Positions 700-53,230 of a stretch of 64,000 nt of DNA are shown one piece after another; within the stretch, counting starts at the first letter, position 1, and each line of letters starts with the position of its first letter. This DNA is from Beroe forskalii. Taxonomy: Eukaryota > Ctenophora > Nuda > Beroida > Beroidae. The position numbers and the translations under genes were made by a program. The notes under the pieces were generated by a model. That model saw nothing but the letters and a program-made list of their open reading frames with translations, made no database searches and was not told the DNA's origin. The stretch covers positions 186,001 through 250,000 of the forward strand of contig WFMF01000028.1 of NCBI GenBank assembly GCA_011033025.1, written 5' to 3'.

Positions 700-780
700 C
701 TCCTCTCGTCGCCGTTCTACTTTCTGAAGTCTGAGTTCTCTGACAACAGCTTCTGCTCCTTTAAACTTTTCAATCACAGT
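700..780 (-). CDS. Coiled-coil protein, unit A, exon 3 of the block
   Basis: On the minus strand an acceptor (tcctcttttcag) precedes an 81-nt open segment of 27 codons starting TVIEKFKG and ending VERRREE, followed by the donor GAG|gtgagg. It is phase 0 at both ends. The peptide is highly charged, heptad-compatible and likely a coiled coil. The same 81 nt are present without a single change at 11672-11752, although the flanking intron has diverged. I do not recognise the protein. It follows the exon at 6753-6920 in transcript order. The exon call is well supported by splice sites and conservation; the function is unknown. Confidence 0.75.
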
Positions 781-3700
781 CTGAAAAGAGGAAACATGAT
801 CACTTACTGAAAATATTCCGAAATAAAATGGGGTGATATACTTGAACGAGAAAATTTGCACAGTTTTCTGGGACTTCCAGAACGAGTATTAACAATTAAT
901 GAGAGGTCGATGATAAACGACATCATTTATAATTAGGGAGACCAGAAGCTAAAACTTATAAATATGAAAGTCAGAAGTCAGTCAGAAGTCGGTCAGGTAG
1001 TCGGTTGTATGTCATGTTCTACCGGTGCACATGTAGTTTTACCTTCTGATCACAGAATGGACCAATCCAATTTTGTTGAGCCTTTCATAAATCGAACTGC
1101 TAAATAGCAACGTGTTTCAATAACTCTTACAAACACAAAAAGGAACGAAGTAATGAAATTTCAAAAAAAGAAACTGAAATCATGTCATAGATGATACATA
1201 ATAAGATCAGAATTAGATTGAAGGGTGACACGATGAATATGGCTTCACAACGAAACACCCCACAAAAAATTCAGCAAGGTGTTGACTGCTTGATCCCATG
1301 CAAATGGACCCTAGGGCGTGAGCAGGCCGTGTGTATGGGACACACTGACAGACACAGTAACACACGGGCAGACATACCAACACACGGGCAGAGATACTAG
1401 CACACTTACATACAGACAAACCAACACACTGACGGACACACTGACTACATACAAGCTACAGACGTCCTACACATATGTTTCAAATGAGATTAGTCTGGTA
1501 CACAGTAAGTAAAAGCAGCGAGCAGCAATCACTTGAGCACGTGTTCACGCTGGGTAGGATATTAGTAGGAAGTTGGGAGATTATCCGAGGAGCTCAATGT
1601 GAGGGTACGATCGATCGGATGAGATGAGGTATAGCATACGATTTATTATCATTACGGACATCCTCAGATGGTGAATGAAAACGACTAGGGTGATAAACAT
1701 TCCAGTTTTCAGATTGTTTACAGTTCATCTGTTCAAAACTAAGAGAAAATCCCTCAACAAACTTCAATATCTTGAGTCCTAAACAAAAGTTTGTCGGTTT
1801 GAGGAATACGATAATCAAAAAGTAAAAACATCAAACAAAACACACACTTCTGACAGATGGTAGAAGTAGAACACCGCCAAAGTTTACTCCACGTATGTGT
1901 GAACCTGTGTACAATGTGAAGCTGTGTCTAGGTACAATGTGGGGTGTAATCATTGTTTACAACATTAGTAATTTACATGATGACGTATTCTTCGCGAAAT
2001 AGTTTTTATATAAAGCTTAGCTCATCAGCCCAATGATTCGGTTGACCATTCCAAATATTATCAAGAATTACCAATTCCCAGAAATTTTCACCACAAAAGC
2101 CATATTTGATTATTCTTGTACCTGTAGTCAAACTCAAAGGAATGAAGGATTATCCATTTGACCATTTCGTATCTAAAAGAACTTTGCGCTATTTTTTTGG
2201 TAATTACTGGAGAAATACTGAGTTGTATTTATGAATGAGCCCTTTACTCTGAAATGAATTTGGTTCTCCCATTGATACGGGACATAGATGTTTCCGGAGA
2301 GAAAATGAGCAATCTATACCAACAACTGTACGACAACTGTGATCACAGTTGTCAAATTAAGCAGTTGAATTATCAAAGGAAGTTAATCAAAACATTGGTC
2401 ATACTTCGAACGAAAGGAAATTAATCTAGGTACTCCAGCCCCCACCGGAAATTACGACCCTGATTAATGATCGTTAATAAACAAAGTGATATTCAAAACA
2501 CAGCAAACCTCACGGTATTTGGTGATAATCATACGGAAATCAAATCACAAACTGCGCACGGTTAAAGGTTGTGTGACGTCATCAATTCCCCGTCATTACC
2601 CCTGATAATGACACCTCTTTTATCCGCCTGTTTATCACGGGACAGCGCGTTGGGATTACCTCTTTAATCCCTCCAAGAGTGCAGAATTCAGTGCAAATAC
2701 TAGGGCTTCTTTCAATGAGATTAAGGGCATGAGTGAATGACACGTTTGATTTCATAGCACTTCCGTAATGACGTATGAAGTTAATAATACAAATCACAAA
2801 TTTTTGTGCGATGATACGATTTGTATCAATATATGAAAGTACAAAGATCATAAAGATTTCAACCTACCCGCTACCGAACAGTTACAGCTACAGCAGAACA
2901 GAGAAACGAAGCTTTTTACTGCTGGTTTCTCAAACAGAACACTGTCTAATCTAAATCTAACAAATAAGTTGAGAAGTGGACAACAGATTAGGAAGTGCAA
3001 TGTTCCACTTGGCCGTATATGATCTGATATTGATATGCTGCTTGTCAACATACTTGGTTGGTACCTACAGGCGAAAAATCGAGGGTAAAATTTCCACAAA
3101 ATTGAAGCATGCAGTTTGTATCTCAGCAATTTATGAGACTAGAGGATGATTTTGACACCACTCTCATCCGTTTATGGTTTAGACAAGAAAATAGTAGAAT
3201 TAAAACATTGGCAGTTCGTAGAAAAGATGACTGATCTTAAGTCGTGTGTGGTTCTACACGTTCAAAGAAGTAATAGACAGAAATATGTCAGAAGATTAGC
3301 ACAAGGAATGTGCATCCCAGAAACGAGGCATGCTTCAAAATTTACAACTCCTCAACTGTCTCTCAAAACAAAACAAAACCATATTAAAGAATTTGACGTG
3401 ATGAAAAGTTGAAAGAAAATAATATTACTCGTACTTGGTGAAAGCTACTAAAGCTTACCAAAAGTTTGGCTGGCTGAAAGAGTGACAGAATACTAACACT
3501 AATGTCTAAAACAAAGACAGCAGCACCAAATGAAATGATGGTTATTTTGAGAGGTACAAACACCTGAAACTTGTTTGTTATGTTGAAAACAGCCAACATT
3601 CCGTCTGCAGTAGAACGTCAAGCCGTAGCAGAGCTCTGTAGATCAACAGAAGGAAAGAGAGGGTTTGTTTTGGTAAAGTGTTACGATGTAAGCGCTATTA

Positions 3701-4618
3701 CTACGCTTCGTTTGGAGCTCTTATTTGATTGAAACATGATTGCATGTAGCTGCTCGGTGAGTGAAAGATAACAGTAGCCTTTTACTTCAGTACTTTGTAA
3801 GGTTTCAAAGACACTGCCGGTACATAACAACAAAAACATACAGACATGCAATCAAATAACGCCCTAATTTAACTGTGTTTGATTGAAGGATGAGCTGTAT
3901 CCAATGGGACTGAAGTTTTGTAGCTTATCATCCAACGGGGAACGGATCTCACAACACTCCAGGCAAAGGTTAGGGCCCCTGTTAAGGCGCTGGGTAAGGT
4001 TAGGTTCAGGACTTGGAGATAAAGTGCTGTGAAGTGAAATGTCGGGAGGTGGGCTCCCCTTTCAAGAGTCAAAATTATGAGATGCACGGGTTAGCGGCTA
4101 GGAACCATGTTTCATTCAGGGCGCACTGTAGCTTGGGGGCCGTTCGTAAATGACGTCTGAAAAATTTCGGCTATTTTAGACCGCCAACGTCCGCAACCGC
4201 AAACATACCACCTCCGGAGTCCGGACACCCGCATTTTCGTTCATCATTTCTTATGCCATCACTCTTATCATCATTTCGTATGCCCGTATTCTCATCATTT
4301 CTTATGCTCGTTTTCTCAAATATGGTGGTAAAATCAAGTAAATCATTTGACTCAATGTCGAAAATCTAAGTCAAAATTTTAAATAATCGACTATTTTGCG
4401 GACGTCCGCATTCGACCAGACACCTCCTACGTCCTCATTGGCCAGACTCGCCCCCCCTCTTATAGACGTGATTTGTGGCTCCTTGAGAATTCGGAACTAC
4501 CTTCGAGCGCGCAGCTGAGCCGCGCGCGCGGCAAAACCACGCGGTTTTCCACAAAGAAAATGGGTTGTTGAACAGAAATGTCTTCGCGCGTTACGCAAAG
4601 TTCCTATTTTCAACTTCA
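781..4618. other. Intron-like region of unit A without recognised gene
   Basis: This lies between exon 3 and the insertion at 4619. It holds a CA/CAGACA-rich simple-sequence tract at about 1318-1450 and otherwise unique AT-rich sequence. The empty site of the LINE inserted in unit B lies near 2770-2790 (acgtatgaagttaataatac), and the empty site of the pogo-like element near 3692-3703 (gcgctattacta). The short open frames differ between the two units and are not conserved, so I treat them as non-coding. Confidence 0.6.
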
Positions 4619-5842
4619 CATATGATCTTTCGCCGAAAATGGAACAAAAGTGTCAGGATTGTAAGCATATTACCTGAGGCCAGATTTAGGCCCGGATTGA
4701 CTTAATGAAGGTATAGATGTGTCTTAGAGGCATTGAATCGATAGGTTGTTAGGGTCAAGTTGCCATTATGGTGCAGCCACTTAACCGCCAACGCCGCCTA
4801 TTTTCATACACGTTTATGCCAGTATTTTGGGCATTTCTGACGGTCCCAAGAAGGTCATAGGTACTAAAATTGTTGCAAGATATGTTCTTGAAAGTGTATT
4901 TAATGATACAACATTCGCAGGTCGCGTGGTTATCGCCTCAGAAAGTGGAACAAAGTGTATTTGAAAAATGGAACAAAAGTGTCAGGATTGTAAGCATATA
5001 CGCGAAAAGTGTCAGGATTGTAAGCATATTACCTGAGGCCAGAGTAAGGCCTGTATTGACTTTATGATGATATAAATATGTCTTAGAGGCATTGAATCGA
5101 TAGTTTTGATAGGTTGTTAGGGTCAAGTTGCTACCATGGTGCCGCCACATAGCGGCCAAAGCCGCCAATTTTCATACACGTTTATTCCAGTATTTTGGGC
5201 GTTTCTGACGGTCCCAAGGGAGTCATAGGTACTCAAATTGTTGCAAGATATGTTCTAGAAAGTGTATTTAATGATACAACGTCCGTACGTCGGGTGGTAA
5301 TCACCTCAGAAAGTGGAACAAAGTGTATTTGAAAAATGGAACAAAAGTGTCAGGATTGTAACTTGTAAGCATACTTACAAGGATGGTAGGACAAAAGCCC
5401 ACCCGGACAAAACCCCACCCGGACATAACCCCACCTTAGAGCACAAATTGCGCGATGGGAACGTTCGTGCGAACCATACGTCCTAACCCTAACCGTAACC
5501 ATTGCGTCACAGGATTGCGCACGAGCGTCCCTTTCGCGCAATTTGTGCTCTAAGGTGGGGTTATGTCCGGGTGGGGTTATGTCCGGGTGGGCTTTTGTCC
5601 GCGCACCGTAAGCATATACGCGAAAAGTGTCAGGATTGTAAGCATATATGTGGCGGCACCATGGTGGCAACCTGACCCTAACAAGCTATCAAAACTATCG
5701 ATTCAATGCCTCTAAGACATATTTGTATCATCACAAAGTCAATCTAGGCCTAACTCTTGCCTCAGGTAATATGCTTACAATCCTGACACTTTTGTTCCGA
5801 TTTTGTTCCATTTTTGTTCCAAAATCGGCGAAAGACTGACTC
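4619..5842. mobile_element. Foldback-type element inserted in unit A, 8-bp target duplication
   Basis: Unit B reads straight through this site (ttttcaacttcattttgtgg near 18905). In unit A a 1224-bp segment is inserted between two copies of caacttca (4611-4618 and 5843-5850). The ends are inverted repeats: ctttcgccgaaaatggaac on the left and its complement, with internal repetition, on the right (near 5790-5835). A motif containing tgtcaggattgtaagcat occurs several times in both orientations. No transposase is visible, so it is non-autonomous. An 8-bp duplication suits hAT- or MULE-type transposition, but the superfamily is not proven. Confidence 0.75.
5389..5600. mobile_element. Nested palindromic MITE-like element
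   Basis: This inverted repeat inside the 4619-5842 element begins ggacaaaagcccacccgg and ends with its complement, ccgggtgggcttttgtcc. The arms contain tandem ~19-bp repeats of the cacccggacataacccc type, then a shared gagcacaaattgcgcg segment. The core is short and contains tcctaaccctaaccgtaacc, which resembles telomere repeats only by chance. It has no coding capacity. Confidence 0.7.
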
Positions 5843-6588
5843 CAACTTCATTTTGTGGGCCATGAAATTGGGCAAAAGTGATGACTTTATGATGCCTGGA
5901 TTATGAGAATCTATTCCGGGATAAACACACATTATGTGAATACAAATCAATAATTCACATCGGTCAATTGAGTTAAGTGAACGCATAATGAAGTTTGTAA
6001 AGGAATGTAGTGATAACACAACACAAGACTTCGAACAAAGGCGGTTTGAAGTAAACAATTCACCATTGTGCAGCATGAAAATGATGTCAACCTCAACCAA
6101 CTATTGTCTAAGAGCAATTTGTACATGACTACAAACAATACCAAGACTAATGATTCAACACAACATTCCATTTTAAACAAACAATAATTACTCTGCCTCT
6201 ATAAAGAAAATTTTACATCAAGAACTACAAAACAGAGCGTTTGCAGACAGGAAAATTAGCAACGAAACGTCTTCTGGCTATTTCACTGACGTATTGAACA
6301 TGTCTGTAGCTGCTCTGTAGAATCAGAGTTTTCTATTTTAGTATTTTGAGCAGTGAGCACTAACTTTATAAGTTTTGTGGGTAAATTTATTCGGAAGTTT
6401 TTCTCCTTACTTAGTCTGGTTATAAGTTTATTATTCATTTACCGGCTGTCGCTAAGCAAGACATTATGCTTGTGTGTCTGTAATCTGTAGGTTAACTGTC
6501 TACATGTCTAGTGTCTACTTTGCGTTACACAGACACTACATAATATGTTTTTCGGTTAAAAGTCAGTCTGAAAACCTGAAATGTTCAC

Positions 6589-6760
6589 TCGATGTCTGTA
6601 AGTTTGTAACTTTCTACAGACCTGAATTTGACGTGTTTAATGTTAGTTTGTAACTTTCTATAAACCTGAATGTGTCGCGTTGTCTGTAAGTTCGTAACTT
6701 CCCCAAACCTGGATGTGTCGTATTGTCTGAAAGTTTGTAACATTCCGCAAACCTGGATGT
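6589..6760. repeat. 44-bp minisatellite, about 4 units (unit A)
   Basis: There are four degenerate copies of a ~44-bp unit (tgtctgtaagtttgtaac...caaacctgaatgtgtc). The array abuts and overlaps the 3' end and splice donor of the exon at 6753-6920. On the coding strand each unit contains a donor-like CAG|gtttgt and a preceding cttacag. The orthologous array in unit B has expanded to about 14 units. Confidence 0.85.
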
Positions 6761-6920
6761 GTCTGGTTGGTTTCTCCAGGGTACCAGCAGGACATGTCTC
6801 GCTCATGAGACCCATAAGCTCCAACATGGCCTCACTCTGCTTGACAATGTCACTCGACTGCTGGAGGACACCAGTCTTAAGGTTCTGGAACTCGTTGTAC
6901 GTTGCTGACGAGGCTTTAGC
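6753..6920 (-). CDS. Coiled-coil protein, unit A, exon 2 of the block
   Basis: On the minus strand the acceptor ttatccccag is followed by 168 nt (56 codons) starting AKASSATYNEFQNLKTG and ending PTRHIQ, with donor CAG|gtttgc. It is phase 0 at both ends. The heptad-like pattern, with QQSSDIVKQSEAMLELMGLM in the middle, suggests an alpha-helical coiled coil. Compared with unit B (20257-20424) there are four nucleotide differences, all at third codon positions and all synonymous. The donor itself is copied in the adjacent 44-bp minisatellite. The protein family is not recognised. Confidence 0.8.
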
Positions 6921-9152
6921 CTGGGGATAAGGACGTATTAGAATTACAGTAAACTCTGTGGACAAAATACAGGTATTTTCTACAGTAAATTATGGAGTGC
7001 CAAATTAAGTTAAATTTTTGCAAAGGAACTTCTACATGTTATAGTTAGGACATTAGTACTTTAGAACATACGACATACTACAGTACAAAAGTGCCGATCA
7101 ATCCATGCCTGATGCCATGCTTATTCTCTTAGAAGTGGTACAATATCATAATCCCAAGGTAAAATGTTAATAAATGAAGGTAATAATTTGTCGTCAAAAC
7201 AACGCAGGATGCAATGATGAAAGTGACACGTTACTACGGCAACTAATATATCACAGCAGATTGGAGACTTAATACACTTCCCACTGTTACGTCATCATCA
7301 TGGTTAACATCGTAAAAAGATGACGTATAAACTCGCTTATTTTCCACACACAACAGCTTGATCCTTGCTGAGTTTTATACAGGATTATTACATCTACCTC
7401 TCATGATTACGGTGAATCACACAGCCACTGTAATTACATGCTGTACGCAGTACACCCTGGTTTTTAACAGAAACTGTTTATATGGTTTAACACGTAATAA
7501 TATACTGTTAAACACGTGATGTTAAGCAGCTGAGCTGCGCGCGCGCGTTACACGTGACGTCATCGTCAGGGGTTTGAATAGGGCGGTGTTAACGCCAGAT
7601 AGCCTTACTTTAGGGTACGCTGGGTAATGATGATTTGTGGATTGATAGAATCATGTTTTAACAGTCCCTCATTTTACACGTCACTATTTAACTACCCGGT
7701 GTTTTGAGGCCAGCGTCTACTTATATTGGTAGATAGTCAGTCAAGATAGTCAGTCAAGGCTTAAGTTTAAGGTGTGGCGATCTAAATAATCCCCAAGTTT
7801 AAGATTTCAGAGAGAGAGGATGTAATCAATATTCCGCGGTGAAAGTAGAGTCTACCGGTAAATCTTTAGTATTGACTAACGTCTAACTACCTTGAGTTGT
7901 TGGTATTTCATAGAGTATTTCTGAACTTAGTCAACTATGAGTATTACCCTAAACCCTCTACACATTACACTCCAGATTCACAGAAAACCGCACAGATCTA
8001 AGCAAACATTCGCATTAAATACTCGCATAATTGCGAATATTATGCGAATAGTCTGCAATACACCAATATTTTGATAATGTTGCAGACCATTTTACTGATT
8101 TACCACAGCCGTAAAACATTACACTACTATATTTAATTTATGCCAGGTTTTGCAGTAAGGTACTCAACTAAAATCTTTACCGTATTCACGTTTATTAAAT
8201 CTTGGTTTAATTGCTCTCCCCAAATGCTGAGAATTGAATAAAACCATTGTTCAATATATTGAAGGAGATAATATACATCTCAGATTGAACCAACGCTTTT
8301 AAGAGCAGAACTAAACCATTATTCAAAATGTAAGCATGTATTTGACCCGCCGTGCACGAGAAATAGGCGGTTAAACGTCATGAATTTAAGGATTCATCAT
8401 CTAATAACTCATGGTAATTACATCTTTACCAACCGCGTATTGTTTGAGTAGGACCCCTCCTATACACTCTGTGTTGAGGAAAGAACAGAGCATTGTTAAC
8501 CAACAGATGAGTTAAAAGGCTTATCATTAACCGATATAGTGGGAGATAATACAGCTGATAATTCTATACGGATATATAATGATTCCGGATAAGGATCTTG
8601 GGAGCAAAGAGAGGAATCTCCGAATTTCATGTTTTGAGGTTATCTAGAAACCTCAGCGCGCAGGCGGAGTTACTACTTAGTTCTATGTTCTTGTAGCTCT
8701 GTGTACCGTTTCAACACCACCACGTGCTAATCTATACCAGTGTAGAAGACCAAGTTACAGGACTACAGATAGAAACGTGAACCAGGAAAATAAAAATACA
8801 GGAAATCAAGTTTTTCCCGGTTCCGGTTGGATCAGCAAATTTGGCACACTCAAAGTGAGCCATGATTTCACGTGCAATAATTTGAAGACCAAAGTACTTC
8901 AGTTACGTCAGTAACCTGATGTCAAAAGTTGATAACTTTTGCGTTTTTATCAATTTTCCACAAAAGTACAATATGTTCCCTTTAAAGAACTGTACTCCAC
9001 AGTACACAAATTATAACGTGAAATTCAAAAAATAACATTATCTGAATGCCGAATGAAATAAAACTATGACTAACAGCATGGCTTTCGAAAGTTTCTGATG
9101 ATGAAAACATTATTTCACTTCAGTTAAAATACTGTAACGTGTAAACTCCTAC
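6921..9152. other. Intron-like region of unit A, no gene seen
   Basis: This AT-rich sequence is collinear with about 20425-26200 of unit B. It contains the empty site (gcagtaaggtact, near 8155-8165) of the 3.5-kb element in B. No conserved open frame was found. Confidence 0.55.
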
Positions 9153-9173
9153 CGTTGATTGGTCTGCTTTTGC

Positions 9174-9281
9174 CTTGTGGGTTTTGATGAGTTGTCGGAG
9201 GGATCTGATGTTGGTGTCCACATCTCTGATTTGAGAGTAGAGGTGTGTCGTAAAGAGGAGGTACTGTTCACACTGCTGTTT
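9174..9281 (-). CDS. Coiled-coil protein, unit A, exon 1 of the block
   Basis: On the minus strand a pyrimidine-rich acceptor (cctcccctcag) is followed by KQQCEQYLLFTTHLYSQIRD and on to LIKTHK: 36 codons, phase 0. The three differences from unit B are all synonymous. The donor is odd. Unit B has AAG|gtacag, while unit A reads AAG|gcaaaa, a GC instead of GT. Either a GC-AG intron is used, or the exon runs seven codons further (AKADQST) to a GT at 9151-9152, giving exon 9153-9281, which is also phase 0. The encoded segment is helical and coiled-coil-like. The protein is not recognised. Confidence 0.72.
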
Positions 9282-10132
9282 CTGAGGGGAGGGAGGGGGT
9301 TAGACCTGTTCTAGACAGGAGCTCTCAGGGGCTATAGCCCGAGCTAAAGATGGAGGAGGTTAGAGACTCAGCGAGCGGAAATACACACGCGTTTCACTGA
9401 TAAGAAAAAAACACCAGTGATGTGCTCATTGCAGGAAAATCTGAACGCGTTGCTGCGTCATCACTTCATCAGAGCGCGCGTCTTATTCGTATTTATTGCG
9501 CACTGCGACTCAGAGATGAATCATTTAAGGGGATTTTTGTTTTTACGATTAATCTTAGGGTGAAATAATTTATTTTCTGTGCCCATATTTGACCTTCTTA
9601 CCCGCAAAGTAATAAAAAGTACTATTGAACGTATTTGCCGTGAGATTGTGAGAGCTGGTGCGCGCTCACCATGAAAGATACAGGTAGGTGCCCCCAGACA
9701 ATATGCAGACAAAACACCAGGCAAAATTTCTGGAAGGGCGAGCAGGAAAAAAACTGGAAACCCGGGGGGCAAAACCACGAAATAATGAAGGGTTTTTAAG
9801 AGGGGCATGAACAACATGTAGATGAGAGGGAAGTCACGTTAATGGTTAGAAGTGGGTAACTCGTGATGTAATACTCTGTGCAGTAGTTAATAAGCGGGGG
9901 GGATGATAGCAATTTTCAAGGAAAATGTACACGTCACTTATTCACTTAAAAATAACCCTCCCCATTTTAAAGCTATCATCACATTTAGTGGCAACCCCTC
10001 CCCCCCCCCCTTTAGCCTCAAATTCTCGAACCCCCCACTCTGGTACGCTTATTTCGAACCCCCCGCTTATTAGCTACTGCAAAGTACACAGCTTAGTTGG
10101 AGCGTGATCAGTGATGCTTTTTAAATATAGCA
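9282..10132. other. End of unit A, no gene seen
   Basis: This is collinear with 26337-27156. It includes C-rich tracts near 9990-10010 and a cgaaccccccgcttatta motif close to the duplication junction. The open frames here are not conserved between units. Confidence 0.5.
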
Positions 10133-10329
10133 ATGCAACTCACAGTGAGACTATCGGAATGTGTTGGGTGTTATAAAGGAGTTACAGCAGATTATAGTAT
10201 CAGTGATTTGATAGAATTCTAGTAACGGAATATGAAGATATGAAACACTTGCTGGAGGAAGATCAACCAGTTGTTGGAGGGGAAACGTACAACAGTAGCA
10301 GCATGGAAATGATTTAAATACACGATTAA

Positions 10330-11483
10330 GGGCCGGATTACACAATTTTCGTGTTAGGTCGACCTAAGAGGCTCGAAGTTTAAGGAGGAGCTCTAAGGAG
10401 CACCTCCTGTAGGTCCTCCTTTAGCAAAATCAGTATTACCCAATTCGTAAGGTCGACCTATACCGTAAAGGAGGAGGTCGTCTTCAAACGCTAAGGAGCA
10501 TCTTAGGGCAGCTCCTCCTTTGACACTTTCTAGGATTACCCAAATTAAAGGCAACTCAGTTAAGGGCAGCTCCATATATGGTGAACACCACCATATAAGG
10601 AAGTCATATGGAGTGTGAATTAAATCTAGAAATTAGATGCAAATTGAATCTGTTAGCAAACTAAATTATAGATGGGTTTGAATGTGCTCGCTGCCAGTGA
10701 AATGGATTTTACTGCTAGTGAGTAAATATCTTGGAGATGATTGATAAATCGTTAAAAAATAAAAACATGCCTTATCAGTCAATCAAACACAGTTGCTGGA
10801 TAATAGACCTATTGTCAATTTGAGTGATTGAAGCCTACGGCGGGGCACTGACACAGTTCCCAAAAGAGCAAAAGCATGAGAGCTGCCACTGCCAGCTCAG
10901 TTTACAATTACCCTAATTGCTGAATTGCGATTGAATACTTGAATATAAATAAAAATGTTGTACATAAGAGCTTATTATCGGTCTTACCGTTCCCTAATTT
11001 TACCGTTTACGAATCCCAATAAAACACACCACATAATGAAGGTAAATTGTTTAATGATTTTGGCTGTTTAATGATTTTGCTTTTTGAACCGATCACAGCT
11101 GGACCGCAAACTAACCTATCAGAAAATTGGATCATTGAATTTTATTTCTTCTCTTGTGACAACGATGTAGCTCCAAAGTATTATCACATATAACGTGTGG
11201 TTTAAGGAGCACCTCCTGGTTTTAAGGACGAGCTGGAGGTACCTTAAAAATTCGCCGTTTAAGGAGCAGCTAAAGGACCAACTTAAGGACGAGGTAGATT
11301 GGGTAATACCGATTTTTCGAGAATTTTAAGGTCGACCTAACTCGCTAAGGGCACCTTAAAATCTCCTTAAAGAAACACATTGGGTAATACGAATTTTAAG
11401 GTGGACCTTAAACTGCAGTTTGGGCCGTTTTAAGGAGCACCTAGGGCTAAAGGTTGACCTTAAACGGTTGTGTAATCCGGCCC
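10330..11483. mobile_element. Non-autonomous DNA element, TAA target duplication, PIF/Harbinger-like
   Basis: Perfect 16-bp terminal inverted repeats, gggccggattacacaa and ttgtgtaatccggccc, bound a 1154-bp insertion flanked by taa (10327-10329 and 11484-11486). Unit A lacks it near 528-533. The subterminal zones carry many short palindromic motifs related to aaggtcgacctta and taaggagcacctcct in both orientations. A 3-bp TWA duplication is typical of PIF/Harbinger. No transposase is present, so the superfamily is inferred from the duplication and terminus only. Confidence 0.82.
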
Positions 11484-11671
11484 TAAGAAGCAGTTCCTCC
11501 CCAAGACGAAAACCAGTCCAGTTAAGGGAGCATAAGAAAACTTATAGAAGTTAAGAAAACTTATAGAAACATAGAAAATTTATAGAAGCATAGAAAACTT
11601 GTTAGTAAATTAACTCTTTTTGGTTTTTGATGAAAAATGTAGAAATTTCGTAATAAGAAATGGATCCTCAC

Positions 11672-11752
11672 CTCCTCTCGTCGCCGTTCTACTTTCTGAA
11701 GTCTGAGTTCTCTGACAACAGCTTCTGCTCCTTTAAACTTTTCAATCACAGT
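11672..11752 (-). CDS. Coiled-coil protein, unit B, exon 3 of the block
   Basis: The 81 nt are identical to the exon at 700-780 (TVIEKFKG...VERRREE), with acceptor cttttcag and donor GAG|gtgagg, phase 0 at both ends. In transcript order it precedes exon 1 of unit A (9281-9174). Splicing across the units would join VERRREE to KQQCEQ in frame and continue the helix. Confidence 0.75.
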
Positions 11753-12604
11753 CTGAAAAGTGGAAAACATGATAAATGACAGAAGGATTCCGTGATTGGA
11801 GCTGATATAGTTGGAGCTGATATAATTTTATTGGACACAGAAAAATTGCACAGTTTTCTAGGACTTTCAGAACGAGTATTAATGAGAGGTCGATAAACGA
11901 CATCATTTCTAGTTAGGGAGGCTAAAACGTATAATATAAAGGTCAGAAGTCGGTCTAGTCAGGTAGTCAGAAGTCAGTCAGAAGTCGGTTGTATGTCATG
12001 ATTCCACGGTGCATATGTAGTTTACCTTCTGATCACAGAATGGACCAATCCAATTTTGTTGAGCCTTTCATGAATCGTACTGCTAAGTAGCAACGTATTT
12101 CAATAACTCTTACAAACACAAAACAGCAACGAGGTTATGCAATTTCAATAAAGGGAAAGCGAAATCATGTCATAGATGATAGATATTAAGATCAGAATAA
12201 GATTTAAGGGTGACTCGATGAATGTAGCTTCACAACGAAACAACCCACCGAGAACAATCGGCAAGGTGTTGACTGCTTGATCCCATGAAAATGGACCCTA
12301 GGGCGTGAGTAAGCCGTGTGTATGGGACACACTGACACAAGCAGACACACACTGACAGACACACCAACACACTGACAGACAAACCAACACACTGACACAC
12401 ACACACCTATATACTGACAGACACAGAAAGTGCGACATTTGACCCCCCGACACTTGACCCCCCGACATTACATCCCCCGACATTACATCCCCCGACATTA
12501 CATCCCCCGACACTTGACCCCCTGTACTCCTGTAGTTACTAAAAATGTGATAGACAGGATTTGGATATTGCAATAATGTTATAGTGTATAGAATAATTGT
12601 CTAT

Positions 12605-13157: not shown

Positions 13158-13400
13158 TTGATGACTAGAAACATCTACCCATGATTACAACTGCCTGAAA
13201 ACGTGCAGATACGATTCCTTGCGTTTATTTGGTAGCAGAGGGTTCATGTTGCTTGACTCTACGTCTCAACTCAGTCGATGGTGCGACACCTGAACCCCCG
13301 TTCCCAAGCACAGTTGCATGGGAGTTTACTGTGCCTATAGAGGGGATGTGGTGTCGGGGGGTCAAATGTCGCACTTAGACACCTTGGTCAAGCCGCGGAT

Positions 13401-14998: not shown

Positions 14999-16302
14999 CT
15001 CAGAGCTTTTTGATCCGTTGGAAGATGCCATCAAGAACAAGTTTCTACCTGCAATTATTGGGAGGCATATCTCAGATGTAGAAAGAGAATTGTTCTCTTT
15101 ACCTGTAAGACTTGGTGGACTTGGAGTCTCAAATCCCGTGGAAGGAGCAGCATTTGAGTTTCAGGCTTCAGAAAAGATCACTGAAAACTTGAAGAAATTG
15201 ATCATGAATCAGCAGCCAAGTCTGGATGGTTACCAACATGAGGAAGCAGCAGAGCGCACCAGGGACTGTATGAAGGACAAGGAAGTTAAACTACTCAGGA
15301 AGGTCGCTGATGTCAAATCTGGTTCCTCTGATCGGCTCAAGAGGTCCATAACCTTAGCCCAAGAGAAAGATGCGGGAGCTTGGCTAACCGTTCTTCCTAT
15401 CGGTTCTTTGGGGTGGGTACTGAACAAGGAGGAGTTTAGAGATGCTCTCAGGCTGGCAAATTCCCAACATTCCGGCATTGTGTGTTTGTGGCAAAAAGAA
15501 TTCTGTAGACCACACCTTAGTTTGTAAAAATGGTGGCTACTTAATCTTTAGGCACAACAAAGTACGTGACACAAATGCTGCGTTTCTGAGGGAAGTATGC
15601 CATGACGTTAAGACTGAACCAGAGCTGATTCCGATCAACTCCTGCCAGCAACTCCCTGGGAACACGGAAGAGAGGGCCCGCCTTGACATCTCAGCTCGAG
15701 GGCTCTGGGGACCATTCCAGAAAACCATGTTTGATGTCAGAATCTTCCACCCGAATGCTGATTCTTACAAAGACCGTGATATCAAATCAGTATACACACA
15801 ACACGAAAACATCAAGAGAAAGAACTATGAGCAACGTGTCATCCAGGTTGAGAAATGTAGTTTCACGCCATTAGTTTACAGCACTTCTGGAGGGATGGCA
15901 CCTCAAGCAATGGTGTTTCATAATAGACTGGCTGAACTCATTGCAGAGAAGACAAACGAGGAGTATAGGGATGTAATCAGTACAATGAGAACAAAACTGT
16001 CTTTTGCATTGCTCAAGAGTGTGCTGATTTCAGTGAGGGGATACCGGGGCAAAGCTTCGCGCGTGCCAGAGCTCCCAGTTTCTGCGATATCCTTCAATTT
16101 GATACCAGATGGTTTATCAGGGGATAGCTCACGTCTACAATTCTGATTTTCGTTGTCAGTTGTAGTTTTCCTGTTTGAAGGGTCAAGGCATGAATTTTGA
16201 CAGTTTGTTATGTAATATCTGTAATCTTTTATTCTAATTTTCAAGCATTAGGTAGGTTAACATTATCTTGACATTACCTCTCATAAGCTGTTTTTAAAAA
16301 AA
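14999..16302 (+). mobile_element. 5'-truncated RLE-type non-LTR retrotransposon insertion
   Basis: The insertion is flanked by an 11-bp direct repeat, atgtagttaat (14988-14998 and 16303-16313). The empty site in unit A, acgtatgaagttaataatac near 2770, shows a single copy. The 3' end is a short A-rich tail (tttttaaaaaaaa). The left end cuts into the reverse transcriptase C-terminal region. This is the normal product of target-primed reverse transcription with 5' truncation. Confidence 0.88.
15003..16146 (+). pseudogene. Non-LTR retrotransposon protein, C-terminal part with zinc knuckle and restriction-like endonuclease
   Basis: The open frame enters from the element's left end (ELFDPLEDAIKNKFLPAI) and runs to about 15455, where a one-base shift moves the reading into the frame ending at 16146. 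The first part resembles the region after the RT core. The second has a C-x-C-x7-H-x3-C zinc knuckle (CVCGKKNSVDHTLVC), then RLDISARGLW and FDVRIFHP, which match the PD/D-x-K type spacing of restriction-like endonucleases. Next come NYEQRVIQVE and FTPLVYSTSGGMAPQ, a block I know from repeated RT-associated proteins of cnidarians and other invertebrates. The clade (R2/R4/NeSL or relatives) is not resolved. The frameshift makes it inactive. Confidence 0.8.
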
Positions 16303-17250
16303 ATGTAGTTAATAATACAAATAATAAATTTTGGCGCGATGATACGATTTAAATCAAAATATTAAATTACAAAGATGATAAAAATTTTAGCCTATCTGCT
16401 ACTGAACAAAAACAGAACTAAATAGAAACCGAGCTATTCACTGCTGGGCGCTGGCTCCCCAAACAGAACACTATCTAATCTAAATCTAACAAATAAGTTG
16501 AGAAGTGTACAACAGATTAGGAAGTGCAATGTTCCATATGGCCGTATATGATCTGATATTGATATGTTGCTTGTCAACATACTTGGTTGGTACCTACAGG
16601 CGAAAAATCGAGGGTAAAATTCACAAAATTGAAGCATGCAGTTTGTATGTCAACAATTTAAGAGACTACACCATGATTTTGACATCACCCCACCCGTTTA
16701 TGGTTATACAAGAAAAAGAGTAGAATGAAAACATTGGTAGTAGCCAGTAGGTAGAAAAGACTACTGATCTCAGGTCGAGTGTGGTAATACACATTCAAAG
16801 AAGCAATAGACAGAAATATGTCAGAAGATTAGCACAAGGAATGTTCGATCACAAGAACCCAGAAACGAGGCATGCTTCAAAATTTATAACTTCTCAACTG
16901 TCTCTCAAAACAAAACAAAACCATATTAGCATATTAAAGAATTTGACGTGATGAAAAGTTGAAATAAAATATGACTCGTAGTTGGTGAAAGCTACTAAAG
17001 CTTACCAAAGGTTTGGGTGGCTAGAAGAGTGACAGAATACTAACACTAATGTCTAAAACAAAGACAGCAACACCAAATGTAATGATGGTTATTTTGAGAG
17101 GTACAAACTCCTGAAACTTGTTCGTTTTGTTGAAAACAGCTAACATTCCGTCTGCAGTAGAAGATTTAACGTCAAGCCGTAGCAGAACTCAGTAGATCAA
17201 CAGAAGAAGGTTTGTTTTGGTAAAGTGTTACGATGTAAGCGCTATTACTA

Positions 17251-18049
17251 CCTTAGTGGTAGAAATTAAGAAGTGTACTATTTAAGGTAGTAAGCAATTT
17301 TACTGCCTTAAATAGTACACTCCTAAAATTCTACAAATCTTAATTTCTACCTACCGTAATTTGTACAATACCAAAATTTTAGAAAATTTTGTTTAAATAA
17401 AGATTTGTACATCTATACCTATCTTTTCTTTCACTAGAAGGTACAATATTAAGGCATTCTATTTTCTCTCAATACAGGTTCAGAATCTTTCAGCGAAAGC
17501 ATCAGTGCAGACAAAATCAAATTTTATATGATAAACAATTATCACTCGATAAAAATTATAGGCATTTCTTCAACTTCTTTGTCTTCCTGCACATCTTCCA
17601 TATCTTCTACCTAAAGCCCAATAGAACCATCTTCGATATGTTCTTCGATGTTTTCATCAGAAAACAAGGCCTTCAAAATTTCAGCGGAATCATCGGCCAA
17701 TCTTTCATCAAACGGAGGCAGTGAAACATTGCAAAGAACATGGTGTTGACTCAAGGATGCTCATTGACCCTTTTGCTAATCTGTTTCTCTAGAACGCCTA
17801 GTTCTACTTTTGTCTATATTTCATGGATCCCAAATAAATTGAATTGAATGGAAAATAAATTGAATTCAATGGAAAAATCCCGCCCTCTTCTTGTTTTCAC
17901 ATCGGTATTTTTGGTTGAAAATTGGTGAAACGACGTGAAATTTAGTCCTAGAAAAGCCTGATTTTTGTAGAAATTTTACTGCCTTAATTAGTACACTTCT
18001 TAATTAGTACGTCCTTAATAAATACACATCTTAATTTCTACCACTAAGG
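17251..18049. mobile_element. TA-flanked pogo/Tigger-like deletion derivative
   Basis: The 799-bp insertion has inverted termini ccttagtggtagaaattaag and its complement, and TA on both sides (17249-17250 and 18050-18051). Unit A has the empty site gcgctattacta|cgcttcg. On the minus strand, about 17560-17745, a reading frame includes CNVSLPPFDERLADDSAEIL and an acidic VEDMEDVQEDKEVEE tail ending in a stop, with one internal stop. This looks like the C-terminus of a Tc1/mariner-pogo transposase. Subterminal sequences repeat ttaattagtac-type motifs. The family is inferred from the TA duplication and acidic tail, not from a catalytic triad. Confidence 0.75.
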
Positions 18050-19651
18050 TATGCTTCGTTTGGAGCTCTTATTTGATTGAAACATGATTGCATGTAGCTG
18101 CTCGGTGAGTGATAGATAACATTAGCCTTTAACTTCAGTATTTTGTAAAGTTTCAAAGACAGTGCCGGTACATAACAACAAAAACATACAGACATGCAAT
18201 CAAATAACGCCCTAATTTAACTGTGGTTGATTGAAGGTTGGGCTGTACCCAATAGGACTGAAGGTTTGTAGCTTATCATCTAACGGGGAACGGACCTCAC
18301 GACACTCCACCTTCCGTTAGAGCCCGTGTTAGAATTAAAGCGCTGGGTAAGGTCAGGTTCAAGATTTGGAGTGCAGTGAGGTAAAATGTCGAGAGGAAAC
18401 ATAGGGTGGGCTCCCCTTTCAAGAGTCAAAATTATGAGTTGCACGGCTTAGCGGCTAGGAACCGTGTTTCATTCAGGGCGCACTGTACCTTGGGGGCCAT
18501 TCATAAGTGACGTCTGAAAAATTTCGGCTATTTTAGACCGCAAACTTCCGCAACAAGAAACATACCACCTCCGGAGTCCGGGCAACCAGATTTTCGTTCA
18601 TCATTTCTTATGCAAACATTCTTATCATCATTTCGTATGCCCGTTTTCTCAAATATGGTGGCAAAATCAACTTAATCATTTTACTCAATATCGGCATTTG
18701 ACCAGACACCACCTACGTCCGCATTGGCCAGACTCCCCCTTTTTGCACTTTGCAGACGTGCTTTCGTAGCTCCTTGAGAATTCGAAACTATACCGATCTT
18801 CGAGCGCGCAACTGAGCCGCGCGCGCGGTAAAACCACGCGGTTTTTCAGAAAGAAAATGGGTTGTTGAACAGAAATGTCTTCGCGCGTTACGCAAAGTCC
18901 CTATTTTCAACTTCATTTTGTGGGCCATGAAATTGGGCAAAAGTAATGATTTTATGATGCCTGGATTATGAGAATCTATTCCGGGATAAACACACATTAT
19001 GTGAATACAAATCAATAATTCACATCGGTCAATTGAGTTAAGTGAACGCGTAATGAAGTTTGTAAAGGAATGTAGTGATAACACAACACAAGACTTCGAA
19101 CAAAGGCGGTTTGAAGTAAACAATTCATTATTGTGCAGCATGAAAATTACGTCAACCTCAACCAACTATTGTCTAAGAGCAAGTTGTACATGACTACAAA
19201 CAATACTAAGACTAATGATTCAACACAACATTCCATTTTAAACAAACAATAATTACTATGCCTCTATAAAGAAAATTTTACATCAAGAACTACAAAACAG
19301 AGCGTTTGCAGACATGAAAATTAGCAACGAAACGTCTTCTGGCTATTTCACTGACGTATTGAACATGTCTGCAGCAGCTCTGTAGAATCAGAGTTTTCTA
19401 TTTTAGTATTTTGAGCAGCGAGCACTAACTTTGTAAGTTTTGTGGGTAAATTTATTCGGAAGTTTTTCTCCTTACTTAGTCTGCCAATAAGTTTACTATT
19501 CGTTTACCGGCTGTCGCTATGCACGACATCATGCTTGTGTGTCTGTAATCTGTAGGTTAACTGTCTACATGTCTAGTGTCTACTCTCCGTAACACAGACA
19601 CTGCATAATGTTTTGTCGGTTAAAAGTCAGTCTGAAAACCTGAAATATTTC

Positions 19652-20265
19652 TTCGATGTCTGTAAGTTTGCAACTTTCTACAAACCTGAATGTGTCTTGT
19701 TGTCTGTAAGTTTGTAACATTCCACGAACCTGGATGTGTCGTGTTGTCTGTAAGTTTGTAACTTTCTACAAACCTGAATGTGTCGTGTTTTCTGTAAGTT
19801 TGTAACTTTCTACAAACCTGAATGTGTCGTGTAGTCTGTAAGTTTGTAACTTTCTACAAACCTAAATGTGTCGTGTTGTCTGTTAGTTTGTAACTTTCCA
19901 CAAACCTGGATGTGTCGTGTTGTCTGTAAGTTTGTAACATTCCACAAACCTGGATGTGTCGTGTTGTCTGTAAGTTTGTAACTTTCTACAAACCTGTGTC
20001 GGGTTGTCTGTAAGTTTGTAACATTCCACAAACCTGGATGTTTCGTGTTGTCTGTAAGTTTGTAGCTTTCTACAAACCTAAATGTGTCGTGTTGTCTGTA
20101 AGATTGTAACTCTCCACAAACCTGAATGTGTCGTAATGTCTGTAAGATTGCAACTCTCTACAAACCTGTGTCGTGTTGTCTGTAAGTTTGTAACTTTCCA
20201 CAAACCTGAATGTGTCGTGTTGTCTGTAACTTGTAAGTTTGTAACTTCCTACAAACCTGGATGTG
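19652..20265. repeat. 44-bp minisatellite, about 14 units (unit B)
   Basis: There are about fourteen copies of the same 44-bp unit as at 6589-6760, two of them shortened (cctgtgtcg). The last unit overlaps the splice donor of the exon at 20257-20424. On the coding strand each unit offers acttacag...CAG|gtttgt, that is, a potential acceptor and donor around a short segment. Confidence 0.9.
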
Positions 20266-20424
20266 TCTGGTTGGTTTCTCCAGGGTACCAGCAGGACATG
20301 TCTCGCTCATGAGACCCATAAGCTCCAACATGGCCTCACTCTGCTTGACAATGTCACTCGACTGCTGGAGGACTCCAGTCTTTAGGTTCTGGAACTCGTT
20401 ATACGTTGCTGACGAGGCTTTTGC
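20257..20424 (-). CDS. Coiled-coil protein, unit B, exon 2 of the block
   Basis: The 168 nt encode the same 56 residues as 6753-6920 (AKASSATYNEFQ...PTRHIQ). Four third-position differences are all silent (GCT/GCA, TAC/TAT, CTT/CTA, GGT/GGA). The acceptor is ttatccccag and the donor CAG|gtttgt, phase 0 at both ends. The intron just downstream is an expanded array of donor-containing 44-bp units. The protein is not recognised; a coiled coil is likely. Confidence 0.8.
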
Positions 20425-21689
20425 CTGGGGATAAGGACGCTTTAGCATCACTTTAAACTCTGTAGACATTAGACAAAATACAGGTCTTTTCTACAGAAAA
20501 GAAAAGAACTATGAAGCGACAAATTAAGTTCAATTTAGCAAAGGAACTTCTATATGTTTTAGTTAGGACATTAGTACTTTAGTACAAACTACAGTACAAA
20601 AGTGCCGATCAATCCTTGCCTGATGCCATGCTTGTTCTCTTAGAAGTGGTACAATATCATAATCCCAAGGTAAAATTTTAATAAATGAAGGTAATAATTT
20701 GTCGTCAAAACAACGCAGGATGCAATGATGAAAGTGACACGTTACTACGGCAACTAATATATCACAGCAGGTTGTAGATCGAGCATTGATTTAATACACC
20801 TCCCACTGTGACGACATTATCATGTTTAACATTGTACAAAGATGACGTATAAATCGCTTATTTTCCACACACAACCCCTATAACAGCTTGATCCATGCTG
20901 AGTTTTATACAGGATTATAACATCTACCTCTCATGATTACGGTGAATCACACAGCCACTGTAATTATACATACTGTGCGCAGTACACCCTGGTTTTTAAC
21001 AGAAACTGTTTATATATGGTTTAACACGTAATAATATACTGTTAAACACGTGATGTTAAGCTGAGCCGCGCGCACGCGGCACACGTGACGTCATCGTCAG
21101 AGGTTTGAATAGGGCGTTGTTAACGCCAGGTAGCCTTACTTTGGGGTATGGTGAGTAAAGATGATTTGTGGATTGATAGAATCCTGGTTAAACAGTCCCT
21201 CATTTTACACGTCACTATTTAACAACTCGGTGTTTTGAGGCCAGCGTCTACGTCTTATAATGGTGGTATATAGTCAGTCAATAGGCTAATCCATAAGTTT
21301 AGGGTGTGGCGATCTAAATAATCCCCAAGTTTAAGATTTCAAAGAGTGAGTATGTAATTAATATTCCGTGGTAAAAGTAGAGTCTGCCGGTAGATCTCTA
21401 GTATTGACTAACGTCTAACTATCCTGAGTTGTTGGTATTTCATAGAGTATTTCTGAACTTAGTTAACTATGAGCATTACCTTAAACCCTCTACACATTAC
21501 ACTCCAGATTCACAGAAAACCGCACTCCACAGAGCAAACATTCGCATTAAATACTCGCATAGTTGCGAATATTATGCGAATAGTCTGCTATACACCAATA
21601 TTTTGATAATGTTGCAGACCATTTTACTGATTTACAGCCGTAAAACATTACACTACTATATTTAATTTAAATGCCAGGTTTTGCAGTAA

Positions 21690-24600
21690 TAGTCAAGGCC
21701 CAATTGGTCAACATAGAAGTCCCGTGCTTTTTTCGTGTTAATGGACAGTTAGGAGTGGTTCTAGGTATTTTAGGCTATGCTGAATCGATCTAGCTATGCC
21801 GACATTTTTTATTTCGATGACGACACCGAGTTTTGGCCACGCCCATTTTTGCCCTGTATGTGCATGCCATAGGATCGAAATTTTTTTTCACACTTCAAAT
21901 GGTGTGTCATACATCGAAATAGGGGTTTTTCGACGCGAAAAACACGATGCAATCCTCAGATTTAGCTCAAAATGTTCACAGAACGGTTTAGAGGTGACCA
22001 CACCCCTTTTTAGATACACGCGTGAACCCAAAATGACAAAATTCCCATTTCTTGATACCCATGGCATGTGATATGTCAAAATAGGGGTTTTTCGACACGA
22101 GAAACATGATGCAATCCTCAGAATTGACCAGAGAGGTCCATAGAACGATTTACAAGTGACCACACCCCTTTTTAGGTCCATGCGAGTTCCAAAAATGACC
22201 CGAAAATTCCATTTTCCGATACCCATAGCATGTGATATGTCAAAATAGTGGTTTTCTGGCACGAGAAACACGATGCAATGTTCAGATTTGACCAAAAAGG
22301 TTCACAGAAAGATTTAGAAGTGACCTTTCTCCTTTTCAGACCCAAATGAGGCCCTAGAATGAAAAAAGTTACATTTCCTGATACCTACCCAATAACCATG
22401 GCATGAGGAATAGTAGTTTCATGCAACAAGAGGCATGATTCTATATTCAATCTTTTAATTTAAGCCTGAAATGCTGCCATTAATCGTTAAGAAGGCCAAA
22501 TCCATTTTGTAGAATGTAGCCCCATGTTGCATGCAAAAAATCAACAAAAATTGATATTCTGGATCGTGATTATAATTAGTTCATGATTTTGATTTTAAGA
22601 CCCCGGTCGAGAGTCCCGATCCTCCCCTGCCGGAGCAGGATGGCGTTGCCAGCCCAGCGGCGGGTTCAGGCCACTCCTTCTGTGACCGGAGCGAGGGCTA
22701 CCTCCGCGACATCCTCTAGGGACGGCTAAACTGTAATCCTGATACCCAAGACACTTGTCCCAAGGGATAGGATTACACTTGCAGAGTCGTCGCCAGCTCT
22801 TAGACACTGGGCCACCAGTACTATTGGCATATCTAACGACCCTATTAAGTTTGAACCTGTGCACAATGTTGGTGTTTAAACAGCACAATTCACAAATTTT
22901 GGAGTTGGATTTGGATTCCAATTTTGCACAGAACTCCCTGTATTTTGCGGTCCAATTGTTGTCCCGCAGTATTTCATACCTCTTATGGGACTCCTTCCTT
23001 ATGGTGTCAAGGTCCGAGTCCCGAGGTATTTTCCTGTCTTCTCCTTATCTTTGCCCTCATGTCCCTCCTGGCTTCCCCCTCACCTCAGGCGCATCTCACG
23101 GAAGTGGTTTAATCTTCGCTGACACATACGTCAGTTCAGTCACCGAGTTGAAGGCACCAAGAATGAACAACGGGAGCTCAGATGCCAATGTGTCCATTTT
23201 TTCGACAGAGTAAATATTCCTGAACACTTCTACTTCAGATCATGATGCAACATGTGATGCCATCAATAGTGTTCTGTTACATTGCTTCAGATGTTCTGAG
23301 GGGTGACAAAGCATTCAAAGCATCTAAGAATGCTTCTTAAAGTCTTGAATGATCCCTGTTTTCCACTATAGCTTCATGAATCAAAATGATCACATTATCT
23401 TGAAAGAGGATGCAATTTCGAGGCTTATGTTAATGCAACACAGGAGTTCTGTGTCAGCTTATAGTGATCGTGGAGCTAGTACTGGAAACCCATTTTGGTA
23501 GGTATGAGCTTACAATTCTAAGTCCATAAGCTGCAACATATTGAATTGACAAGAATTCATTTCAAAAATTACTACAAAATACATTAGAATAAGATAAATA
23601 TCATTGCCCCATGTTTTATCATTGTCACATGTTTTATCATTAGAGTTTACTTTAGCAAAAAAAGGAATTTGAGAGCTTCAGTAGGTAGCCTCTATGATAT
23701 TGGACTGCTGAGATGGTTATTATATTCAAAGCATCAAGTTGGTGGAAACTTGCCACCAACAAGTTCAATATTTGAGGTATAGCTTAATTGCTCTGGTTTA
23801 AAAACAAAAATTCCGATTTCTTCCAGAATTATGATGATAATAATAATAAATATGGTTGCTTATACACAGTAACGAGGTGATAAAATAACAAATACTTTAA
23901 CCCTATGCTTTAAAACCCTATACTTTAACCCTATGCACAAATACTTTAACCCTATGCTCAATGGAGTTGGCAATATGCATTTGAAGACTTGTACAAGGAA
24001 ACTGAGTGCTCTCAATGTGAATATAATGTGACAATACATAATTTCCAGTGTTCTGAAGCATGAGGTAGGCAATGTCCTTGACTGACCACTGCACAGTGAG
24101 AAAAAGGATGGTGGAAAATTGTTTTGAAACCGTTGTGAATAACATGATTGTGTGAGTATAAAACTATATAAAAGGAAAAATTTCTTCGTCTGAAAGTGAT
24201 TCACAATAATATCAATATTTTGCTTTAAACTGGATCATGAACTAATTATAATCACGATCCAGGATATCAATTTTTGTTGATTTTTTACATGCAACATGGG
24301 GCTACATTCTACAAAATGGATTTGGCCTTCTTAACGATTAATGGCAGCATTTCAGGCTTAAATTAAAAGATTAAATATAGAATCATGTCTCTCATTGCAT
24401 GAAACTACTATTCCTCATGCCATGATTATTGGGTAAATAAAAAATAAATAAATAAATAAATATATCTACATGGTACACAGCATGCACCTGCCTCTTATTG
24501 GGTAGGTATCAGGAAATGTAACTTTTGTCATTCTAGGGCCTCACGTGGGTCTGAAAAGGAGAAAGGTCACTTCTAAATCGTTCTCTGAACCTTTTTGGTC

Positions 24601-25193
24601 AAATCTGAGCATTGCATCGTGTTTCTCGTGCCAGAAAACCACTATTTTGACATATCACATGCTATGGGTATCGGAAAATGGAATTTTCGGGTCATTTTTG
24701 GAACTCGCATGGACCTAAAAAGGGGTGTGGTCACTTGTAAATCGTTCTATGAACCTCTCTGGTCAATTCTGAGGATTGCATCGTGTTTCTCGTGTCGAAA
24801 AACCCCTATTTTGACATATCACATGCCATGGGTATCAAGAAATGGGAATTTTGTCATTTTGGGTTCACGCGTGTGTCTAAAAAGGGGTGTGGTCACCTCT
24901 AAACCGTTCTGTGAACATTTTGAGCTAAATCTGAGGATTGCATCGTGTTTCTCGCGTCAAAAAACCCCTATTTCGATGTATGACACACCATTTGAAGTGT
25001 GAAATAAAAAATTTTCGATCCTATGGCATGCACATACAGGGCAAAAATGGGCGTGGCCAAAACTCGGTGTCGTAATCAAAATAAAAAATGTCGGCATAGC
25101 TAGATCGATTCAGCATAGCCTAAAATACCTAGAACCACTCCTAACTGTCCATTAACACGTAAAAAGCACGGGATTCCATTTCGTCCCTGACTA
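21690..25193. mobile_element. 3.5-kb DNA element with ~0.9-kb terminal inverted repeats, TAA target duplication
   Basis: The element starts tagtcaaggccc and ends with a similar complement, ...gtccctgacta. It is flanked by taa (21687-21689 and 25194-25196), while unit A has the single taa at the matching site. The left arm 21690-22587 and right arm 24234-25193 are long, highly similar inverted repeats. The right arm also has an AAAT-rich insertion near 24435-24500. The arms themselves contain several diverged ~200-bp internal repeats (gtgaccacaccccttttta-type). The loop has no transposase but holds a short open frame on the minus strand. The TWA duplication points to a PIF/Harbinger-like mechanism; such long arms are unusual. 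Confidence 0.85.
22595..23044 (-). pseudogene. Unidentified cysteine-rich open frame inside the 21690-25193 element
   Basis: The minus-strand reading begins at about 23044 after a stop and includes KESHKRYEILRDNNWTAKYR, a KICELCCLNTNIVHRF segment, VVRYANSTGGPVSKSWRRLC and KCNPIPWDKC. The paired cysteines and basic residues look protein-like, perhaps zinc-binding, but I do not recognise the family. The last ~45 residues (RGCRGGSPRSG...) are low-complexity and may be non-coding. It sits in the loop between the long arms, so it may be captured host sequence or a remnant of the element's own gene. There is no obvious start codon. Confidence 0.4.
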
Positions 25194-26228
25194 TAAGGTA
25201 CTCTACTAAAATCTTTATTCACGTTTATTAAATCATGGTTTAATTGCTCTCCCCAAATGCTGAGAATTGAATAAAACCATTGTTCAATATATTGAAGAAG
25301 ATATACATCTCAGATTGAACCACTGCTTTTAAGAGCAGAACTAAACCATTATTCAAAATGTAAGCATGTATTTGACTCACCGTGCACGAGAAATAGGCGG
25401 TTAAACGTCATAAATCACTCTAACAACTCGTAGTAATAACATCTTTACTAACCGCGTATTGTTTGAGTAGGACCCCTCCTATACATTCAACTCTGTGTTG
25501 AGGAAAGAACAGAGCATTGTTAACCTACAGATGAGTTAAAAGGCTTATCATTAACCGATATAGTGGGAGATAATACAGCTGATAATTCTATACGGATATA
25601 TAATGATTCCGGATAAGGATCTTGGGAGCAAAGAGAGAAATCTCCAAATTTCATGTTTTAAGGATCTGGAAACCTCAGCGCCCAGGCGGAGTTACGGAGT
25701 TACAATCTAGTTCTACGTTCTTGTAGCTCTGTGTACCGTTTCAACACCACCACATGCTAATCTATACCAGTGTAGGAGACCAAGTTACAGGACTACAGAA
25801 TAAGAAACGTGAACCAGGAAAATAAAAATACAGGAAATAACGTTTTTCCCGGTTCCGGTTGGATCAGCAAATTTGGCACACTCAAACGAGCCATGATTTC
25901 ACGTGCAATAATTTCAAGACCAACGTACTTCAGTAACGTCAGTAACGTCAGATGTCAAAAGTTGACAACTTTTGAGTTTTTATCAAGTTGTTTTGACCAC
26001 AAAAGTATAATCTTTTCCAGGTTAAGAACTGTACTCAACAGAACACATCATACCCCCATCATAACGTAAAATTCAAAGAAAGATGTAACATATTATGTCA
26101 TCTGAATACCGAATGAAATAAAACCATGACTGACAACCTGGCTTTCGAGAGTAACTGAAGGAAATATCATTTCACTTCAGTTAAAATTTAAACGAGTAAA
26201 CTCCTACAGTTTATTAGTTTGCCTGTAC

Positions 26229-26336
26229 CTTGTGGGTTTTGATGAGTTGTCGGAGGGATCTGATGTTTGTGTCCACATCTCTGATTTGAGAGTAGAGGTG
26301 TGTCGTGAAGAGGAGGTACTGTTCACACTGCTGCTT
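26229..26336 (-). CDS. Coiled-coil protein, unit B, exon 1 of the block
   Basis: An acceptor ending ctcag is followed by 36 codons, KQQCEQYLLF...LIKTHK, with the canonical donor AAG|gtacag, phase 0 at both ends. The three differences from unit A are silent. Reading past the donor meets stop codons within five codons, which supports the splice site. This is the most 5' exon of the gene found in the window; upstream exons may lie to the right, beyond the large inverted duplication. Confidence 0.75.
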
Positions 26337-53150: not shown

Positions 53151-53230
53151 CCCTCGTTAGGAACCACTCTGGCAGTAACCCCCCTCTCTTCCTCTGTATC
53201 TGATTCCGTCTGGTAGCTGCTCCGCCCCGC

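Follow-up and report, generated by a model that had tools for sequence, protein, structure and literature searches.

A 64,000-nucleotide stretch of the genome of the ctenophore Beroe forskalii (contig WFMF01000028.1; C336:186001-250000, herein the window) carries a tandem exon duplication. A segment of 9.8 kb with three exons in phase 0-0 is present twice, head to tail, in what appears to be the interior of one gene; the two exon trios encode the same residues and differ at silent sites alone. We consider it likely that this phase-symmetric trio was duplicated, that both sets enter one mRNA and add one repeat to the encoded protein, and that both are constrained. The duplication is of a known kind, with unusual splice-site detail. 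It offers a clean natural case of a phase-symmetric exon duplication that could lengthen a protein by one repeat, both copies being seemingly under full amino acid constraint at ∼9% neutral divergence.

Self-comparison of the window by blastn, together with the junction sequences, places the units on the minus strand at 306 through 10132 (unit A, the downstream copy in transcription order) and 10133 through 27156 (unit B, the upstream copy); five insertions account for the greater length of unit B. At the junction (10132/10133) the end of unit A directly adjoins the start of unit B, and the outer ends of the pair match both junction halves. Once the insertions are set aside, the units can be aligned almost from end to end, so chance is excluded. 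Exon 1 lies at 9174 through 9281 in unit A and 26229 through 26336 in unit B (36 codons), exon 2 at 6753 through 6920 and 20257 through 20424 (56 codons), and exon 3 at 700 through 780 and 11672 through 11752 (27 codons). The original prediction had described this repeated trio at these coordinates and with every exon in phase 0-0. All six exons are indeed found there on the minus strand, open, preceded by AG and of a length divisible by 3, and the trio recurs head to tail; the limits of the duplicated units are corrected to those given above. The 119 encoded residues (36 + 56 + 27) are identical between the sets, and exon 3 is identical over its 81 nt. Two copies exist: in searches of the assembly, which covered 216 Mb in 1134 contigs, each exon matched two places, both at this locus (two other matches had E >5), no third copy turned up in the adjoining 50 kb downstream, and exon and unit A intron probes found none in the rest of the assembly.

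The trios differ at 7 of 357 coding nucleotides (3/108 in exon 1, 4/168 in exon 2, 0/81 in exon 3), and our recount agrees with the earlier one in finding all seven at third positions and synonymous. The introns, described earlier as having gathered indels and six insertions, do contain six unit-specific insertions and many small indels, together with 9.5% substitutions (730/7703 aligned sites); this count omits the insertions, a minisatellite described below and two short stretches between alignment blocks, and block ends were trimmed by estimate, which may have admitted a few extra mismatches. An alternative alignment, in which some repeat sites are counted twice, gives 9.8% (792/8096). Depending on the weighting of transitions, the trio comprises 78.5 to 89.7 silent and 267 to 279 nonsynonymous sites; synonymous divergence (dS) between the units is 0.08 to 0.095 and nonsynonymous divergence (dN) is 0. 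Without selection, 21 to 25 nonsynonymous changes would be expected at the silent rate and 26 to 27 at the intron rate; none is observed. The probability that all seven changes would be silent, if scattered at random over sites, is 2.5e-5 to 6.3e-5. For zero nonsynonymous changes at the intron rate the probability is 3e-13 to 1e-12, and ∼1e-6 if a single copy alone were free to drift. Purifying selection on both exon copies, one of two explanations put forward in the original prediction, is strongly supported by these comparisons, and both exon sets appear to be in use.

The second explanation put forward there was gene conversion confined to exons, which would keep the copies alike. Such conversion would remove silent and replacement differences alike, yet seven silent and no replacement differences remain (the 2.5e-5 to 6.3e-5 above). 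It is also unneeded, because silent sites (7/∼84) diverge like the introns overall (730/7703; p = 0.85), and the four most similar 200-site windows (4 to 6 differences; starts at 5879, 6079, 8025, and 8447) all lie in introns. We therefore reject it as the main cause and rate it highly improbable, while recognizing what it could explain: the 81 nt of exon 3 show no difference although its flanks (±100 nt) differ at 43/200 sites, silent sites as a whole have diverged less than the ±100 nt exon flanks (82/450; p = 0.025), and similarity varies along the units (dispersion 5.7 across 38 windows, each of 200 sites), so that conversion may take place in patches. The contrast between silent sites and flanks would be compatible with weak selection at silent positions or with short conversion tracts, for example at exon 3. 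An assembly artefact, with two divergent haplotypes joined end to end, is in our judgment very unlikely. Overlapping haplotypes left unmerged could give the appearance of head-to-tail copies of ∼90% identity, but the 114 kb examined contains no N, the junction included, and the six large insertions would all need to be heterozygous; allelic divergence near 10% would moreover be extreme. A nonrepeat probe from the neighboring phosphodiesterase gene (window 53200-54200) matches one place in the assembly, and a unit A intron probe matches units A and B alone. Retained haplotype copies are therefore not evident with these two probes, one from the neighboring gene and one from a unit intron.

A further possibility is that the exon sets are alternatives, one per transcript, chosen for instance by tissue or through exon skipping. 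Alternative use would be compatible with constraint on both copies, and the splice signals do differ between the sets (unit A has a GC donor, and the donor arrays differ in length). The residues are identical, however, so exclusive choice would bring no gain in protein sequence, and since every exon is in phase 0-0 and a multiple of 3 in length, the frame permits joint inclusion; we regard exclusive use as unlikely. Joint splicing of all six exons is plausible: the phase symmetry of the trio would allow both sets in one mRNA, and the product would be a helical rod longer by one repeat. After the duplication, introns and silent sites would have drifted by ∼8 to 10% while the units acquired six insertions between them, and selection would have removed every amino acid change in both copies. 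That the insertions are unit specific indicates that this drift came after the duplication.

For the most part the splice sites are compatible with the earlier view of the trio as a spliceable set. The acceptors of all six exons score 4.3 to 7.4, and five of the six donors are GT: AAG/GTACAG in exon 1 of unit B, CAG/GTTTGC and CAG/GTTTGT in exon 2 of units A and B, and GAG/GTGAGG in exon 3 of both (the slash marks the exon end). The sixth, in exon 1 of unit A, is GC and had gone unmentioned. A coiled-coil repeat had also been proposed, and its helical character is suggested by an amphipathic-helix signal exceeding that of 993 of 1000 shuffles. Read by eye, the 119 residues resemble helices A, B, and C of a spectrin-like repeat, helix C meeting helix A of the next copy where exon 3 joins exon 1. 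The block probably corresponds to a single, complete spectrin-like repeat of three helices. Searches of Pfam and PDB gave weak or chance-like matches (e.g., Prominin, E 0.005; synaptonemal complex protein, E 0.009), and the doubled block matched Spectrin_7 at E 0.0058 (17.4 bits against a cut-off of 27). Matches of the doubled block to DUF1722 and Globin were discarded; they pass the cut-off merely from doubling (16.9 and 14.5 bits for the single block).

Several observations weigh against a jointly spliced, spectrin-like pair of repeats within a larger gene. The GC donor of unit A exon 1 (AAG/GCAAAA) stands in a weak context and scores -2.7. GC donors are a minority class in animals. An exon scan prefers for this exon a GT donor 21 nt further on, at 9152, which would make the exon 9153 through 9281 and add 7 codons in frame; the scan applies a simple score for codons and splice sites, with 4519 training codons taken from eight frames in this genome, its GC-donor penalty was set by us, and it recovered 5/6 known exons exactly (2/6 under stricter thresholds). 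The stretch of unit B matching the 21-nt extension contains, read by eye, an in-frame stop, so the extension is not common to both copies; if the GT donor were used, the copies would differ by seven residues at that join and the 119 shared residues would stay identical. No spectrin profile matches the block above its cut-off, and the single block gave no spectrin family among the 5 Pfam families listed. The spacing from exon 3 to the next downstream exon is, in our reading, unlike a canonical spectrin linker. On the upstream side the scan found no convincing coding exon at 26337 through 44000, nor any to 53000 at a score of at least 15; the best candidates are one of 31 nt at 30759 through 30729 and one at 38142 through 37917 inside a tandem repeat, and the best first-exon candidate sits in a dispersed repeat. 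Upstream frames read by eye, without a Pfam search, yielded no convincing exon. Downstream, 10.7 kb separate the block from the next clear exon, and a receptor-like gene on the opposite strand lies in this interval. The GC donor may work all the same, and we infer that exon 1 of unit A is spliced there.

The splice-site detail extends to exon 2, at whose donor a 44-bp tandem array begins. Tandem Repeats Finder (TRF) reports 3.9 copies in unit A (6593 through 6763, minus strand, overlapping the donor) and 13.5 in unit B (19657 through 20240, minus strand). In register, the array units repeat the last ∼12 nt of exon 2 and the donor: 13 of 16 array copies match the last 12 nt of the exon at no fewer than 9 positions, and the remaining three at 5, 6, and 8 (two of them shortened units). 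The minisatellite appears to have grown out of the splice donor. Unit A contains 4 further CAG/GT sites (6708, 6665, 6621, and 6575) and unit B 14 further AG/GT sites (20205 to 19639), the last of each series lying just beyond the array. As alternative exon 2 donors, 6665 in unit A and 20205 in unit B would be open and in phase, with extensions of 29 and 17 residues, respectively, that end again in TRHIQ; the remaining 16 shift the frame or reach a stop. A genome search that skips simple repeats found the 44-bp array at no other place in the assembly. That the array offers competing splice donors in a number that varies with its length, and so tunes inclusion or length of the protein repeat, is a tentative idea to which we give little credence; the difference in copy number between two otherwise matched introns nonetheless provides a ready comparison for donor competition.

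More likely than not, the block lies toward the 5′ end of a Trio/Kalirin-like RhoGEF-kinase gene. Beyond the window on the same strand, 5 of the first 8 downstream candidate exons (scores of at least 14, -9963 to -22954 in window numbering; a 22-nt and a 485-nt low-complexity candidate are left out of the count) are in phase 0-0. One joined pair of them has a weak Pfam Spectrin match (E 0.0013, 19.7 bits against a cut-off of 29.9), and four other downstream exon queries, single or joined, gave no Pfam match. Further downstream lie DH, PH, and then kinase domains (joined neighboring exons; Pfam RhoGEF, 3.2e-22; Pkinase, 1.3e-14), and the best PDB matches of the DH-PH part are to Trio (6d8z, E 1.4e-35; 1nty, E 7.1e-35). 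A CRAL_TRIO_2 search of the whole assembly for Sec14 gave 7 matches at E ≤1, none on this contig, and a RhoGEF search of the whole assembly gave 23 matches with one on this contig (C336:141138-141518) and hence no second DH; exon-split domains may escape both searches.

The receptor-like gene that separates the block from these exons (C336:178548-182380, plus strand; window -7452 to -3620; L009:2548-6380) would lie within a presumed intron on the opposite strand. It consists of two overlapping long frames, one with an SRCR match (1.4e-7) and the other with LDL-receptor class A (1.6e-21) and rhodopsin-type seven-helix (7tm_1, 5.7e-10) matches. Upstream, on the same strand as the block, the cyclic-nucleotide phosphodiesterase gene (Pfam PDEase_I, 3.8e-69, for one exon) runs from 53231 to ∼67 kb, its farthest exon being placed by eye. 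The introns, this phosphodiesterase exon and the RhoGEF-kinase gene are all features indicative of animal DNA. Between this gene and the duplicated block is a 7.8-kb satellite at 44125 through 51925 with ∼413 copies of a 19-bp unit. Another array, at 60776 through 61574, has ∼67 copies of a 12-bp unit and is open in three long frames (287 aa on the plus strand; 307 and 275 aa on the minus strand). Inverted copies of a dispersed repeat, 84 to 88% alike, occupy 27502 through 29450, 33508 through 35156, and 40316 through 40640, where upstream exons would be expected.

The six unit-specific insertions measure 0.8 to 3.5 kb. The one in unit A (4619 through 5842, ∼1.2 kb) has internal direct and inverted repeats. 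Those in unit B are at 10326 through 11487, with 17-bp inverted repeats near its ends; 12426 through 13669, with 75-bp inverted repeats; 14999 through 16302, with an 11-bp target-site-like duplication; 17252 through 18049; and 21690 through 25193, with inverted repeats of ∼0.7 kb that are 97% alike and themselves contain 162- to 164-bp tandem repeats. One of the two frames listed for the insertion at 14999 through 16302 was searched in Pfam, with no match. Candidate target-site duplications of the insertions are 7 to 13 nt long and mostly at chance level; only the 11-nt one of 14999 through 16302 stands out.

Against the domain order of the Trio/Kalirin RhoGEF-kinase family, the locus resembles its relatives in a same-strand DH-PH whose nearest solved structure is that of Trio, in a kinase domain, and in an exon pair with a weak spectrin match; it differs in that no second DH-PH or Sec14 is seen at the locus, where no separate SH3 search was made, and the duplicated block would be a member by position. 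A literature search, outside which most subscription papers fell, returned papers of a general kind on exon duplication and none that treats this locus; for minisatellites with splice donors, under the same limit, it returned one relevant paper (PMC2812944). Judging from the available part of that paper, internal repeats at exon-intron boundaries of human duplicated genes alter splicing; our array is likewise a minisatellite over an exon-intron boundary whose copy number differs between duplicates, whereas here the array units copy the exon tail and 5′ splice site and so present candidate alternative donors. Another parallel is nebulin. Its segments are near-identical, whereas the introns here are far more diverged. 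The nebulin triplicate region, in the portion of the account available (PMC9109913), comprises eight exons repeated three times; there, as presumably at our locus, a multiexon block recurs in tandem within a single gene that encodes a long repetitive protein, though here there are two copies, not three, and a different module. Tandem exon duplications are reported in ∼10% of animal genes in the accessible part of PMC9013439; as in the cases it covers, phase-symmetric coding exons lie head to tail with both copies kept, whereas the B. forskalii duplication is of a three-exon block with no sign of residue specialization, its residues identical at ∼9% silent divergence.

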